DNA of 5,130 nucleotides from Deltaproteobacteria bacterium (GTDB lineage: Bacteria > JAUYMQ01), in NCBI GenBank assembly GCA_030698575.1, contig JAUYMQ010000546.1, forward strand, positions 1-5,130. Reading direction: 5' to 3'. Shown piece after piece: positions 1 through 5,130 of this stretch. The notes below the pieces were generated by a model. The model was given only the letters and a program-made list of their open reading frames with translations. It had not been told where the DNA came from and made no database searches. Position numbers and translations under genes: made by a program. Each line of letters starts with the position of its first letter. Position 1 is the stretch's first letter.

Positions 1-69
1 TGGGGTCTGTGGGCAACGCCGCACGGCGCTGCACGGTTGCGTACCACTCAAGAAGCGTCCCACCGCCCC

Positions 70-91
70 GGCGTCGAGCAAGCTCGACGCC
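70..91. repeat. Perfect 10-bp inverted repeat, strong G/C hairpin
   Basis: Arms GGCGTCGAGC (70-79) and GCTCGACGCC (82-91) are separated by only AA. As RNA this is a 9-bp stem with a CAAG-type tetraloop in the plus direction, or CUUG in the minus direction. No T-run follows on either strand, so it is either a U-less terminator-like element about 250 nt past the HD-GYP stop, or another structural or binding site. Confidence 0.6.
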
Positions 92-165
92 ATCGAAGAA
101 CATCACCGTGGTTCGGGAGCAGTTCCTCCCAGCCCACACCCGACCCGGCTCCCTCTTTGTGTTCT

Positions 166-238
166 GAGATGAGAGCCGTGCGCGCCACCACACTTCCACA
201 CGACTTCCCTGCGCGACACAGGACGATACTCTCATCTC
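166..238. repeat. Perfect 10-bp inverted repeat with 53-nt spacer
   Basis: GAGATGAGAG (166-175) is exactly complementary to CTCTCATCTC (229-238). A match of this length is unlikely by chance in so short a region. It could close a stem of a structured RNA or mark a binding site. The enclosed bases are C/A-rich and show no known motif. Confidence 0.45.
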
Positions 239-340
239 GAAGCTCGCTGCTCTGGAGTGTCTGTAAGGCAAGAGCGGTGCCACAGACGCAGCCGAGCCGA
301 CGTGTGCGGGTAACCACTTACTGTTGCAGTGTTTCGCGGG

Positions 341-1993
341 CTACGAAGGGAATGTCGGGGGTGCCGGGCACGCGCCCGCGTGTAATCGCGGGTTCACACA
401 TCGCGCCCGGAATGGAGACGGCGTTGACAGCTGCTCGTTGGATCGTGGCTCGGTGACGATCATCTCGCTGCCTTTGCTGCGAACGTAATTGACGAAGACG
501 CGGACGATCCGCGGATCAAACTGGGTGCCCGCCGCGCCTTCGAGACGCCGCGCGGCCTCGTCGACGGAAAGGGCCTTGCGGTAGGAGCGGTCGGTGGTCA
601 TGGCGTCGAAGCTGTCGGCGACGGTGATGATGCGCGCGCCCAATGGGATGGCCTCGCCCTTTATTCCGTCGGGGTAACCGCGGCCATCCCAGCTCTCGTG
701 GTGGTGTTTCACGATCTCGGCCACACCGGAGAGAAATTCCATTTTCTCGACGACGCGCGCGCCGACGACGGGGTGCTCTTGGAGGAGCTTCCATTCGTCT
801 TCGTCGAGCTTGCCTTTCGTGTGGAGGACGTTCTCGAGCACACCGACTTTACCAATATCGTGGAGCAGCGCGCCGAACATGACGCGACGACGGTGTTCCT
901 CCTCCAGTTTCAGCCGCGCGGCGATGGCGTTCGCGTAGGAGGCGACGCGCTCGGTGTGCCCGCGCGTGTACGTGTCTTTGGCCTCGATGATGGAGATCAG
1001 CGACCTGAGGGTGGACACGTATGTGATCTGGAGCTGCTTGAACATGCGCGCATTTTCCAGACCGATGCCGGCGGAGTTGGCGACGTACATCATCATGTCG
1101 AGGTCGTAGTCGTTGTACTCTTCGGACGTGATCTTGGGCCCGGTGAAAATGAGCCCCTTGGTGGCGCCACGAACCTTGATGGGCGTCACATATTCGAAGA
1201 CCGCCAACCGCAGGTCGGGAAGCAGACGCGTCCATCGGCGGTCGGGGTTGCGCGCGATCTTGCGCGGGCGCTGGTCCACTTCGAGGAGCGAGACGAACCG
1301 GCCCTGACGCTCGATATCCACGCCCGTAAACTTCTCGCGGTTGAAGCCCTTGACCCCGAGCAGGCTGAATTTCCTGCTGTTCTCGCGCTCGAGCGCAAAC
1401 ATCGCCATGCTCGAAACCTGGAGCTCGCCGAGGAGCGTGAGCGACACGACGTTTACCAGCTCCGTCGCGTCGAGCAGGCGGTTGATGTCCTGGGACACGG
1501 AGAACAAGGTGCGCATGGACAGAAGCTGGCGCTTGATCTCCTTGTTCATCTTGGACTGATCTTCGCGGCGGCGGGAGAGCTGGGTCTGGAGCGAGCTGCT
1601 CTTGTCGCGCAGCGCGCGCGTGCGCGTGCTTCGGGCCAGTATCTTCTCGACCTTGGAGTTGAGTTCGCGCAGCGAGACGGGCTTGACCAGGTACTCCTCC
1701 GCGCCCTGCTCGAGCCCCTCGACGCGCATATCGACGTCGCCATTGGCCGACAGGAACACGACGGGAACGTCCGATCCGCCGTGGGCGCGGAACTCCTTGA
1801 GGACATCGAACCCGGTCATATCGGGCAGGGCCATGTCGAGGATGACAAGCTGGGGCGTGCTGTGCTGGTAGGTCTCCAAGGCCTCGCGGCCGCTTATGGC
1901 CTGCCGCACGTGGTAGCCGTTGCGGTGGAGGGACTCGGAGAGTATCTCCAGAACCCTCGTGTCGTCGTCGACGACCAGGATTTCAGCTGTCAT
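341..1993 (-). CDS. Receiver-GAF-HD-GYP response regulator, probable c-di-GMP phosphodiesterase
   Basis: This 550-residue cytoplasmic protein has no signal peptide or membrane segment. Residues 4-118 are a response-regulator receiver with a complete site: acidic D9/D10/D11, phospho-acceptor D53, S82 and K104. Residues about 120-165 are charged and coiled-coil-like. Residues about 160-315 resemble a GAF sensor domain; its ligand is unknown. Residues about 325-505 are an HD-GYP domain with all expected metal ligands: H346, H378-D379, H407, H431-H432 and D460. It also has K382 and the full HHExxDGxGYP signature (431-441). The family hydrolyses c-di-GMP to pGpG/GMP, so this is probably an active phosphodiesterase switched by phosphorylation of D53. 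The residue four before H346 is Tyr, so the extra Glu of trinuclear enzymes seems absent and a binuclear site is likelier (from memory of the family). The ATG follows an AGGA with 9-nt spacing. The last ~35 residues are a Pro-rich tail unlike the family. The HD-GYP and GAF resemble those of the upstream gene, which suggests an old tandem duplication. Confidence 0.95.
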   Translation of the reverse strand: MTAEILVVDDDTRVLEILSESLHRNGYHVRQAISGREALETYQHSTPQLVILDMALPDMTGFDVLKEFRAHGGSDVPVVFLSANGDVDMRVEGLEQGAEEYLVKPVSLRELNSKVEKILARSTRTRALRDKSSSLQTQLSRRREDQSKMNKEIKRQLLSMRTLFSVSQDINRLLDATELVNVVSLTLLGELQVSSMAMFALERENSRKFSLLGVKGFNREKFTGVDIERQGRFVSLLEVDQRPRKIARNPDRRWTRLLPDLRLAVFEYVTPIKVRGATKGLIFTGPKITSEEYNDYDLDMMMYVANSAGIGLENARMFKQLQITYVSTLRSLISIIEAKDTYTRGHTERVASYANAIAARLKLEEEHRRRVMFGALLHDIGKVGVLENVLHTKGKLDEDEWKLLQEHPVVGARVVEKMEFLSGVAEIVKHHHESWDGRGYPDGIKGEAIPLGARIITVADSFDAMTTDRSYRKALSVDEAARRLEGAAGTQFDPRIVRVFVNYVRSKGSEMIVTEPRSNEQLSTPSPFRARCVNPRLHAGACPAPPTFPS

Positions 1994-2002
1994 GAGACTC
2001 GG

Positions 2003-2006
2003 TCCT
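2003..2006 (-). promoter_or_regulatory. Shine-Dalgarno of the receiver-GAF-HD-GYP gene, overlapping the upstream stop codon
   Basis: On the minus strand AGGA lies 9 nt before the ATG at 1993. It shares two bases with the TAG stop (2007-2005) of the preceding gene. The 11-bp intergenic gap and the overlapping ribosome site suggest that the two HD-GYP proteins are translationally coupled and made together. Confidence 0.7.
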
Positions 2007-3852
2007 ATACACTGAAGAGTTCGAATCTCTTGTTGGCCACGGTCTCGCCCGAGCGAATTTCATCTTCCACGAGATCGATGAACTGCTTGACCACGTCGGG
2101 GTCGTAGCGCATTCCCCAGTTCTCTCGGAGCGCGTTGAGCGCTTCCTCCTGGGTCAACGCGGGGCGCGTCGGCCGAAGCTGCAGCATGGCCGCGTAGCTC
2201 TCTACCACCGATACGATGCGCGCACCGAGCGGGATGGCCTGACCCTGAACTTCGCGCGGGTAGCCCTCTCCGTTGAACCGCTCGTGGTGGCACAGGACGA
2301 CGTTGACGGCGTGGTCGGAGAAGTTCATCTTACGCAGCATGTCGGCGCCGTCGCTCGGGTGATGCTTGATGACCTCCCATTCTTCCGGCATGAGCTCGCG
2401 CGGGCTACGCACGATGAGATCGCTCACCTTGATCATGCCGATGTCACGCAGCACGGTGCCGTACATGCAGTCGCGCAGGTGTTCCTCGGGGTAGTGGATC
2501 TTCTTCGCCAGCGCGTACACATAGTTGGAGACCAGCTTGGTGTTGCCGCGCCCCAGCGTGTTTTCCTCGATCAGGGAGATCAGCGTGCGTACCACGCCCA
2601 GCGTGCGCTCGTTTTCTTCCTCTACGCGCGCGGTGCTCTCGTAGGCGATGGCGGCCTGGTTGACGAGAATTCTCAGGAAGTCGATGGTACTCGGGTCGAG
2701 TTCGTTGCGGATCGGCGGTCCGAGCAATACGATGCCTCGGAAGGTGCCGTGGACGATGAATGGCGCCACGTGGTGACAACCGACCAGCATCAACGCCGCC
2801 TTGGCCTCGGCGTCGAATGGAGCGTCCTCCAGCGCCAGCACGGCGCGCGTCGGGAGCCATTCGTCGAGTCCCAGTCTCCCCTCCTCGAGGGCGAGGCCTC
2901 GGATCTCCTCGGGATCGACACCCTTCATCGCAGCGGGGTAGAAGTAGCCCTGGCTGCGCTGTAGAAACACCGCGCTCTCGACGCCCACCTGGGCGATGGT
3001 CGTGAGCAAGAACGCGTCGAGCAGGCCCTTGCGGTCGTGCATGCGGGCGAAATCGTTGTTGATCGAAAGCAGCGTGTTGTACTGGACTACCCGGCGCTTG
3101 AGCTCCCGTGACTTTGCGTCGTCCCCGGGCTCCGTGCTGGGCGCAGCAGGCGGCGGCACCTCCGCGCGTTCCGGCGCGGGGGCGGCCTCCGCTTCCACAT
3201 GGGGCTTGGGAGAGGGCGCCGAGGCCGGCGTGGGGCTGGTGTCCGCGGTGCCCTCGCCCGCCATCCCGAGGACGTCCTCGAGCACTTCCTCGCTGATAAG
3301 GGCCTCGTCGGACTCCATGTCTACTTCGACGGTCGGGCGCGGTGCCTTCGGTGGATCCACGGGTGCGGCGGCCGCCGGCGCTCCATTCGGGTGCACCAAC
3401 TCATCGTCGGGCGCTGGGGCGGGGTGCGACGATCCGTCCTCGGCGGTGGATTCATCCGGTACCACGACTTCGTCCGGCTCGACGACCTCGCTCGCTGCGG
3501 CGACGCTCGCAAGCACGCCGGCTATGGCGGCCTCGACGGAGTCCGCGGTCACGATACCGGTATTTTGATCCGTGTCCTGAAGGAACTTGAGGACGGTCTT
3601 CTTGGCGGCGGCGACGCCTATGCGGACGCCGCCTGCAGCCGCTTCGTTCCGGATGATGGTAGCGCATCCGCCGCCGAGCGACGTGAGGCGTTCAACATCC
3701 AGAACGACGTGGCTTATGTTCCTCTTCCTGCATTCGCCAAAAAGTTTCTCAAGCGTTTCTTTCTCGTGAAATCCGAGAGTTCCGGATATCTTGAAAACCA
3801 TTACATCCGGGGAGGACGCAGGAGACTTTTCAATGATTGTCTTCGGCGGCAT
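2005..3852 (-). CDS. STAS-like-linker-GAF-degenerate HD-GYP protein, probably catalytically inactive
   Basis: This is a 615-residue soluble protein. Residues about 15-118 look like a STAS (anti-sigma-factor antagonist-type) domain: a beta strand near V17-S23, then VVLDVERLTSLGGG at 49-62, then GVRIGV and a C-terminal helix. The position of the STAS phospho-Ser is G62, so it probably cannot be phosphorylated by an anti-sigma kinase. Residues 120-245 are a Pro/Ala/Glu-rich, probably disordered linker with a short acidic helix-like patch near 178-200. Residues about 250-408 resemble GAF. Residues about 418-600 are HD-GYP-like and align without gaps to the downstream paralogue from the first to the last ligand. 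H498 and H522-H523 are kept, but the first His is N437, the HD pair is R469-D470, the GK lysine is M473, the signature Asp is N527 and the last metal Asp is E551. Loss of phosphodiesterase activity is therefore likely; c-di-GMP binding or partner contact may remain. ATG at 3852 follows GGGGGA with 5-nt spacing. It sits 62 bp after the HTH gene and 11 bp before the intact HD-GYP gene. Confidence 0.93.
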   Translation of the reverse strand: MPPKTIIEKSPASSPDVMVFKISGTLGFHEKETLEKLFGECRKRNISHVVLDVERLTSLGGGCATIIRNEAAAGGVRIGVAAAKKTVLKFLQDTDQNTGIVTADSVEAAIAGVLASVAAASEVVEPDEVVVPDESTAEDGSSHPAPAPDDELVHPNGAPAAAAPVDPPKAPRPTVEVDMESDEALISEEVLEDVLGMAGEGTADTSPTPASAPSPKPHVEAEAAPAPERAEVPPPAAPSTEPGDDAKSRELKRRVVQYNTLLSINNDFARMHDRKGLLDAFLLTTIAQVGVESAVFLQRSQGYFYPAAMKGVDPEEIRGLALEEGRLGLDEWLPTRAVLALEDAPFDAEAKAALMLVGCHHVAPFIVHGTFRGIVLLGPPIRNELDPSTIDFLRILVNQAAIAYESTARVEEENERTLGVVRTLISLIEENTLGRGNTKLVSNYVYALAKKIHYPEEHLRDCMYGTVLRDIGMIKVSDLIVRSPRELMPEEWEVIKHHPSDGADMLRKMNFSDHAVNVVLCHHERFNGEGYPREVQGQAIPLGARIVSVVESYAAMLQLRPTRPALTQEEALNALRENWGMRYDPDVVKQFIDLVEDEIRSGETVANKRFELFSV

Positions 3853-3914: not shown

Positions 3915-4139
3915 TTAAATCACCTCTTGCGAGAGCCACTTATCCAACACGCTCTTGAGGAATCTCCACTCACTGCCGACTTTCTTCGCGGGAATCTTCT
4001 TCTCCTTCGCGAGGCGGCATACGGTCTTGACGTGCATCTTCAGATACTCCGCGGCTTCGATGGACGTCATCACGACGTCCTGGTCGTCGGGTCCGCCGAT
4101 CACGATGTTCGAATAGTCGGTGTCTCTCCACTTGCTCAT
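3915..4139 (-). CDS. Small excisionase/BldC-like (MerR-type) winged-HTH DNA-binding protein
   Basis: This is a 74-residue protein. Residues 1-22 are a polar N-terminal segment. Residues about 24-70 form the helix-turn-helix of the excisionase/MerR-like superfamily (helix_turn_helix_17 type). A first helix includes S26-IEAAEYL, a recognition helix covers about H36-A44, a wing follows with KKVGSEWRF (52-60), and a last helix ends DKWL. The pattern 'eaAeyLkv..ktv.rl...g.ipa.kvG..wrf....l..wl' is typical of stand-alone transcriptional regulators such as BldC and of phage Xis proteins. With no integrase or phage gene nearby and signalling genes on both sides, a regulator is the likelier reading. 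ATG at 4139 is chosen because AAGGA lies 9 nt upstream; a TTG at 4214 would add 25 residues that do not match the family. No effector domain is visible, so the regulated genes and any ligand are unknown. It may control this operon. Confidence 0.88.
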   Translation of the reverse strand: MSKWRDTDYSNIVIGGPDDQDVVMTSIEAAEYLKMHVKTVCRLAKEKKIPAKKVGSEWRFLKSVLDKWLSQEVI

Positions 4140-4148
4140 GTTGCGCCA

Positions 4149-4153
4149 TCCTT
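4149..4153 (-). promoter_or_regulatory. Shine-Dalgarno deciding the start of the HTH gene
   Basis: Minus-strand AAGGA lies 9 nt before the ATG at 4139. It favours this ATG over the longer frame that opens at the TTG at 4214. Confidence 0.6.
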
Positions 4154-4204
4154 TATCTTGACGGATTTGCTTGAGTTCCCACCCTGCTGCGAGACTAAGC
4201 ACGA

Positions 4205-4218
4205 AGCATACCAATGCT
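4205..4218. repeat. Inverted repeat AGCAT-4-ATGCT, candidate operator
   Basis: Perfect 5-bp arms at 4205-4209 and 4214-4218 are separated by ACCA. The repeat overlaps the TATGCT proposed as a minus-strand -10 box, which would suit a repressor site, possibly autoregulation by the HTH protein. BldC-type proteins often use direct repeats, so this is tentative. Confidence 0.3.
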
Positions 4219-4321: not shown

Positions 4322-4345
4322 GTTTCCGCGAAACCTCGGAGGTTT
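4322..4345. repeat. Two overlapping inverted repeats at the 3' end of the CheW/receiver gene
   Basis: AAACCT/AGGTTT (4331-4336 and 4340-4345, 3-nt loop) and GTTTC/GAAAC (4322-4326 and 4330-4334, 3-nt loop) share the bases 4331-4334. The two hairpins therefore exclude each other. The first overlaps the TAA stop at 4346-4344. Without a following U-run this is not a classical terminator; it may protect or pause the transcript end. Confidence 0.35.
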
Positions 4346-5130
4346 AGGGAATGACCCCCTCGCCGAGATACGTGTTGACTGCAGTTGTGACCTGGGCCGG
4401 ATCGAGCGGCTTGCTCAGATAACCCGAGACGCCGAGCTTCTCGACCAGCAGGTCCGCGGTGTTCCCCGTCTGCGACGTAGTCACGAGCACGGGGGTCCTC
4501 TTGCCCCTTCGATTGAGCGCGTCCACCACCTGTTTCGCGGCCATGGTGGGCATCCTGAACTCGCTAATGATCAAGCGCGGTTCCCGCGATTCGATCAGAT
4601 CGATGGCCTCGTCAATGTCACGAACGCACGTGGCCCGCACGTGTCGATCGCTTAGAATCGTCGAGAGTGCGTCCCGCATGGACTCGCTCTGCTCGACTAC
4701 CAACACATCCACTCCGTTCTCCCCTTTATCCTCAGAATAGGAATCTGGAGGAGCCGGAACGTCCACCCTGGACGCTGCCTGATGCGGAGTTTGTAATTCC
4801 GTCTCATCCTGTACTCCCCCAGAAACAGTCTCCGTGTTCATCGTGCCGGTGGCGGCGTGGTATGCCTCGACGACGTGATCGGCGTCGAGAAGCGGCAGCC
4901 GCCGCCCGTCCAGGCGCACGACCTGCGACGGCGCGCCGTGCCAGGCGGGCACGGCGTCGTGGGACACGTGAGCTTCTTTTGCCGCTCCCGGGCCGGGAGC
5001 GAAGAATGCGATTCGTTTTTCCACCGAACCGATAACAACGATGGTGTCCCCACCGGTCGGGGCCTCGTTGTAGAGTCCGTCCAGACGGAACAGCGCCACG
5101 CGCCCGCCGTCGACCTCGACGTGCTGCCCG
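4344..5130 (-). CDS. CheW-like/CheA P5 domain fused to a receiver with Asp-to-Glu at the phospho-site (5' part outside window)
   Basis: The frame is open to the window edge, so this is the C-terminal ~261 residues of a longer protein. From the edge to about 4860 it resembles the second half of a CheW-like domain (as in CheA P5 or CheV): VALFRLDGLY, a TIVVIG strand, then QVVRLDGRRLPLLD. A polar linker of about 45 residues follows (about 4859-4716). A receiver-type domain covers about 4712-4362. Its acidic pair is E-Q (4694-4689) instead of D-D. The phospho-acceptor position in LIISEFRMP is Glu (GAG, 4562-4560). The Thr (4478-4476) and Lys (SKP, 4412-4410) are kept. The domain therefore probably cannot be phosphorylated, and the Glu may mimic the phosphorylated state. 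CheA-receiver hybrids (FrzE-like) and CheV both fit; kinase domains, if any, lie outside the window. The gene ends in TAA, 204 bp before the HTH gene. Confidence 0.82.
   Translation of the reverse strand, partial: GQHVEVDGGRVALFRLDGLYNEAPTGGDTIVVIGSVEKRIAFFAPGPGAAKEAHVSHDAVPAWHGAPSQVVRLDGRRLPLLDADHVVEAYHAATGTMNTETVSGGVQDETELQTPHQAASRVDVPAPPDSYSEDKGENGVDVLVVEQSESMRDALSTILSDRHVRATCVRDIDEAIDLIESREPRLIISEFRMPTMAAKQVVDALNRRGKRTPVLVTTSQTGNTADLLVEKLGVSGYLSKPLDPAQVTTAVNTYLGEGVIP

Follow-up and report, generated by a model that had tools for sequence, protein, structure and literature searches.

What becomes of a cyclic di-guanosine monophosphate (c-di-GMP) phosphodiesterase domain once its active site has been dismantled, and what is such a protein kept for? 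The question is raised by two adjacent genes, here called D and A, on contig JAUYMQ010000546.1 of an assembly labelled Deltaproteobacteria bacterium (GCA_030698575.1). The whole contig, 5,130 bases long and part of a 4.1-Mb draft genome, constitutes the window analysed; on its minus strand it carries, in this order, a gene for a CheW-like + REC protein, one for an HTH_17 protein, D and A. A preliminary description had considered D and A an enzyme/pseudo-enzyme pair, in which the inactive partner senses c-di-GMP or controls the active one. The reading favoured here, to which we give about an even chance, is that D is a catalytically dead regulatory protein, predicted to bind c-di-GMP, acting in a module made of the helix-turn-helix (HTH) protein, D and, in some genomes, A.

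Both proteins possess the HD-GYP domain first attributed to them, as the Pfam family HD_5 matches each above its cut-off, D with 104 bits where 27 would suffice, and the GYP motif is present in both. The spacing from the first to the last named ligand is also the same in the two, 114 residues. The template for the active site is PmGH from Persephonella marina, whose metals are held by E185, H189, H221, D222, H250, H276, H277 and D305 (PMC4159591). Alignment with PmGH returns the three ligand losses that had been reported for D, namely H189 to N437, H221 to R469 and D305 to E551, and four ligands that are retained (D222, H250, H276 and H277, corresponding to D470, H498, H522 and H523). Four more substitutions, absent from the earlier list, are K225 to M, D183 to T, D281 to N and D308 to A. 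PmGH has an eighth ligand, E185, at whose position D has Leu and A has Tyr, the latter being normal for the Y/F subfamily (PMC4159591). At the positions expected of an active c-di-GMP phosphodiesterase, that is H189, the HD dyad, D305 and Lys225, D has N, R-D, E and M, respectively. In PmGH the H189A or H221A mutation essentially abolishes hydrolysis and K225A has a similar impact (PMC4159591); therefore, as judged from these site losses, D is very unlikely to be a phosphodiesterase. Because D scores far above the cut-off, HD_5 matches in Pfam cannot safely be counted as phosphodiesterases.

One could argue that D is still an enzyme whose use of metals or substrate has been altered, since half of the metal ligands and the GYP motif are retained and some PmGH activity survives the single loss of E185 or D305, the D305A mutation merely reducing hydrolysis (PMC4159591). 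However, D has lost the catalytic-site Lys225 along with H189 and H221, and the corresponding PmGH mutants are nearly inactive, which makes this alternative very improbable.

The next point is whether the altered site is stable in evolution. A species-genome scan and whole-genome searches yielded 64 distinct D sequences, found in genomes labelled Krumholzibacteriia and Latescibacterota, all of which fall within a single phylum group among the genomes used; D is present in about 65 of the 80 genomes of this group, and the D and A of the window fall inside this clade. The HD histidine is replaced by Arg in 63 of the 64 homologues and by Cys in the other; at the last ligand position, 58 of the 63 that are readable have Glu, three have Gln and two have Asp. 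H189 is absent from all except the outlier L140, and H250/H276/H277 are nearly always kept. None of the 64 homologues has intact ligands, which bears out the degeneracy first noticed in the window, although L140 is partly reverted. Furthermore, the D sequences form a clade of their own, with a support of 100/100, apart from every intact HD-GYP tested, A included. The fixed substitutions and the separate clade therefore indicate that D is not a decaying gene; at the level of sequence, the picture is that expected of a dead enzyme under purifying selection. Mean pairwise identity of the HD-GYP domain is 0.70 for D versus 0.665 for A from the same genomes, and D exceeds A in 327 of 435 pairs, which are non-independent. 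A decaying pseudogene, or a sequencing artefact, would account for the loss of ligands and for nothing else; it is refuted by the open frame and the conserved substitutions in 64 distinct homologues, together with the strong conservation of the domain, and can practically be dismissed.

No D was recovered outside the phylum group when 386 genomes were searched: the matches of other families that were read, all of at least 220 bits, keep H189, H221 and D222, and three of them vary at D305. One apparent exception, G025, was discarded as it comes from the very phylum set in which D occurs. The possibility that D and A are recent tandem duplicates was also rejected, because D stands in a separate clade and A falls among ordinary intact HD-GYPs. 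Some sequences may illustrate other stages of the process. The divergent D-like L140 (1738-4074) reads Cys...Asp and keeps the first His, and the likewise divergent D-like L141-L143 read Arg-Asn...Gln; these may be intermediate or further decayed states. In other families, L154, L156, L158 and L160 keep H189, H221 and D222 and carry Met for Lys225 as in D, which is possibly a first step toward inactivation.

If D no longer hydrolyses c-di-GMP, it might nevertheless bind it. This nucleotide is very likely made in the source organism, because 15 GGDEF matches are found in its genome. The guanine contacts of PmGH, R314 and K317, are both Arg in the D of the window, and I294 and GYP are also kept; since these recognition residues are there, a role in sensing c-di-GMP is plausible for the lineage of the window. 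PmGH itself held c-di-GMP uncut with the G-site iron as the sole remaining metal. Among the D genes accompanied by A, Arg314 is kept in 30 of 31 and Arg at the K317 position in 31 of 31.

According to the proposed mechanism, the phosphodiesterase activity of D would have been permanently lost and the protein kept as a regulator, which would bind c-di-GMP without hydrolysis. R469 and E551, which from the sequence probably form a salt bridge, would occupy the emptied metal site, so that the pocket might be one-metal or metal-free, with the Arg/Glu pair closing one side. The ligand-bound state could be relayed via the stalk to the GAF and STAS domains, and the output would go to the co-encoded HTH DNA-binding protein, the constant partner, and to A where it is present. 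A, as a response-regulator phosphodiesterase, would lower c-di-GMP, so that a reader and an eraser would be encoded together.

Several observations weigh against this mechanism, at least as a general one. The D of the window has Thr in place of Tyr316, a residue flanked by the two guanine contacts. Among the D genes without A, Arg314 is kept in none of 20 and Arg at the K317 position in 8 of 20, and the Tyr of GYP is often Phe. Given the loss of Arg314 and the change of Tyr to Phe, c-di-GMP binding cannot, on the evidence of these residues, be what D does throughout its clade; the sensing role foreseen in the preliminary description is plausible for the lineage of the window and does not extend clade-wide. 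The association of Arg314 with the presence of A moreover reflects one or two independent events on the D tree; with so few independent contrasts it was dropped as a statistical result and is kept as a description. It is suggestive only: reader and eraser may travel together.

The loss of the guanine-reading residues in the D-only lineages would also be expected if D were a pure protein-interaction scaffold, nucleotide-free and composed of a dead STAS and a dead HD-GYP domain, mainly serving the HTH and CheA/CheW-REC proteins. Linkage to the HTH gene is independent of A, the phosphosite of the STAS domain is an invariant Gly, and a precedent exists in Bd1817, an inactive, lidded HD-GYP (PMC4159591), the HD fold being suited to partner binding, as in Bd1817 or HDOD domains. 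However, the A-bearing lineages hardly vary at R314, R317, Y285 and the H250/H276/H277 triad, residues that a pure scaffold would not need. The scaffold is judged rather unlikely.

As to the partners of D, the co-occurrence implied by the idea of a pair was found in 31 adjacent D-A loci, on the same strand and usually with a short gap, and in three probable ones where A stands at the start of another contig, as would suit a locus split by contig ends. The pairing of a degenerate with an intact protein also holds, as the substitutions persist throughout the D clade and every readable A is intact. These 31 pairs would suit a different arrangement, in which D serves A specifically as a regulatory subunit and forms with it a GAF-stalk-HD-GYP heterodimer, allosterically setting the activity of A. 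Their GAF+HD-GYP architectures are homologous, GAF-stalk-HD-GYP proteins dimerise via the stalk (PMC13090378), and the divergence of D and A is correlated (0.89), though both track the species tree. Against it, no A is found next to at least 20 D genes for which enough downstream sequence is available, and nearly all of these D genes have the Arg/Glu site; in addition, D and A are not mutual closest relatives. A dedicated subunit is thus rather unlikely, and while direct D-A heterodimers are possible by analogy, they would not be the universal role of D.

The HTH gene, by contrast, lies upstream of D in 59 of the 64 loci irrespective of A, and the five loci without an HTH call comprise three contig ends, one broken frame and one masked stretch. 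The last of these, L103, was set aside as a locus lacking HTH because masked bases, a run of N, prevent any judgement of its upstream part. Since HTH is kept in 59 of 64 and A is optional, HTH-D is, from gene order, the core of the module, to which A is added or from which it is lost. For the same reasons, the control of A that had been proposed for D cannot be its general job. The HTH_17 protein is 84% identical in L031. A full version of the favoured model, in which the Arg-Glu bridge stands in for metal, c-di-GMP is bound at a half-site and a lineage-specific D/A reader/eraser heterodimer gates the HTH regulator, is quite unlikely to be right in all its parts.

Other information about D comes from its AlphaFold model, which has a mean predicted local distance difference test (pLDDT) score of 74.5, a disordered linker (residues 122-242) and a long stalk helix after the GAF domain (residues 387-431). 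Over GAF+HD-GYP its best match is PmGH (Z 25.4, root-mean-square deviation (rmsd) 4.7, 336 residues aligned), followed by PA4781 (Z 23.4), the c-di-GMP-bound receptor DvhD (Z 21.5, rmsd 3.8, 200 aligned), the N-terminal domain of V-cGAP3 (chain -2..240; Z 19.7) and Bd1817 (Z 17.0).

These matches place D among systems already described. DvhD from Desulfovibrio vulgaris (PDB 9rbz/9rc0; PMC13090378) has, like D, an HD-GYP fold that lost metal ligands; it is inactive and serves as a c-di-GMP switch; binding was demonstrated for DvhD and is predicted for D. DvhD, however, is a membrane protein of dCache-PAS-HD-GYP layout that reads SQ in place of HD and Met/Asn in place of the double His (PMC13090378), whereas the layout of D is STAS-GAF-HD-GYP, its HD dyad reads R-D, its last ligand position E, and the double His is still there. 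Bd1817 from Bdellovibrio (PDB 3tm8) is also an inactive HD-GYP homologue in which the metal site is partly kept, but its di-iron centre aligns with the G-M sites and its lid is closed, while D has lost H189, H221 and K225 and carries the Arg/Glu pair. PmGH (PDB 4mcw) shares the GAF-stalk-HD-GYP layout with D and is the active-site template for A; it is active and tri-iron, whereas D is without the H-site ligands and A has Tyr for E185 and an extra REC domain. V-cGAP3 from Vibrio cholerae (PDB 5z7c) resembles D plus A in joining an N-terminal HD-GYP-like domain to an intact C-terminal one, but it is a single chain rather than two genes, acts as a 3'3'-cyclic GMP-AMP (3'3'-cGAMP) phosphodiesterase and has no STAS domain. 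VC1087 and VCA0895 of V. cholerae are also without the HD dyad (PMC4212101).

Inactive HD-GYP proteins kept as receptors or otherwise are therefore known already, as DvhD and Bd1817 exemplify; the novelty lies in the combination of STAS and GAF domains, in an Arg/Glu site that has become fixed, in the conservation over a clade and in an intact homologue that is paired with the protein in some genomes only. A literature search for HD-GYP pseudoenzymes, or for HD-GYP in Krumholzibacteriota, found no papers. So far, inactive HD-GYP domains have mainly been single characterised examples; here, a whole clade from a poorly studied group is available, whose natural variants with or without A, and with or without guanine-reading residues, make the transition from enzyme to receptor testable.

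The STAS domain of D was missing from the preliminary description of the gene pair, as was the REC domain of A. Pfam STAS matches are found in 16 of 20 relatives; a profile comparison matches SpoIIAA, and Foldseek matches 1thn with a target-normalised TM-score (TMt) of 0.80. The position of the phosphorylated Ser58, the phosphosite of SpoIIAA, is Gly61 in D and invariant in 20 of 20 sequences, so that the fold is that of a STAS domain and the phosphorylatable serine is lacking. Because of this invariant Gly, the STAS domain of D is probably unphosphorylated. The conserved Ser58 of D, of the same number, was rejected as the equivalent phosphosite, as the profile alignment places Gly61 there.

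A GAF domain had been assigned to both proteins, which structure and homology uphold, although Pfam GAF stays below its cut-off in the two window proteins. For D it is backed by the AlphaFold model, by structure matches and by Pfam GAF matches in relatives, and for A by a sub-cut-off GAF_2 match in one orthologue and by the homology of the GAF+HD-GYP stretch of D and A. The seven common metal ligands and Lys225 are present in the A of the window and in every readable A homologue, so that A looks like an ordinary response-regulator phosphodiesterase, as predicted from its sequence. Separate recruitments of A beside D (L033, L072/L073) were not supported, since a single A clade is not rejected (approximately unbiased (AU) test, p 0.435). 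The 11-bp gap between the genes and the overlap of a ribosome site with the stop of D are as first described: the D stop ends at 2005, A starts at 1993, and a Shine-Dalgarno (SD)-like TAGGA overlaps the TAG stop.

Table 1. Coordinates of the features in the 5,130-base window
Feature	Residues	Position	Strand	Basis or remark
Gene A	550 amino acids	341..1993	-	REC-GAF-HD-GYP; keeps the seven common metal ligands
Intact HD-GYP domain of A	332-496	506..1000	-	Pfam HD_5 5.8e-43
REC domain of A	5-115	1649..1981	-	Pfam Response_reg 5.4e-29
Intergenic gap D/A, 11 bp		1994..2004	-	SD-like AGGA starts inside D stop codon
Gene D	615 amino acids	2005..3852	-	STAS-linker-GAF-stalk-degenerate HD-GYP
Degenerate HD-GYP domain of D	437-601	2050..2544	-	Pfam HD_5 7.6e-30; model matches PmGH, PA4781, DvhD
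E551 codon (PmGH D305 position)	551	2200..2202	-	Alignment
M473 codon (PmGH K225 position)	473	2434..2436	-	Alignment
R469 codon (PmGH H221 position, H of HD)	469	2446..2448	-	Alignment
N437 codon (PmGH H189 position)	437	2542..2544	-	Alignment
GAF domain of D	~244-405	2638..3123	-	AlphaFold model, PDB matches
STAS domain of D	1-120	3493..3852	-	Pfam STAS E 1.8e-4, just under curated cut-off
HTH_17 / excisionase-like DNA-binding protein		3915..4214	-	Pfam; most constant neighbour of D
CheW-like + REC protein, C-terminal part		4344..5129	-	Cut by contig end

Further upstream, a CheA/CheW-REC gene often precedes HTH-D, and longer relatives carry HATPase/CheW/REC domains. By eye, the receiver of the CheW-REC protein in the window has Glu at the expected phospho-Asp (SEFRMP), likewise in L031, and Asp is found in L069 and L070. 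Masked runs of N occur in L103 (~4600-4760, in the D-region frame) and in L033 (~2760-2865, in the CheA-like gene). A gene for a CdaA-type diadenylate cyclase adjoins the locus, on the downstream side of D or A, in L033, L069, L070, L076 and L077, mostly in convergent orientation; its DAC + CdaA_N domains were confirmed by Pfam in L033, and folP- and ftsH-like genes come next in several loci.

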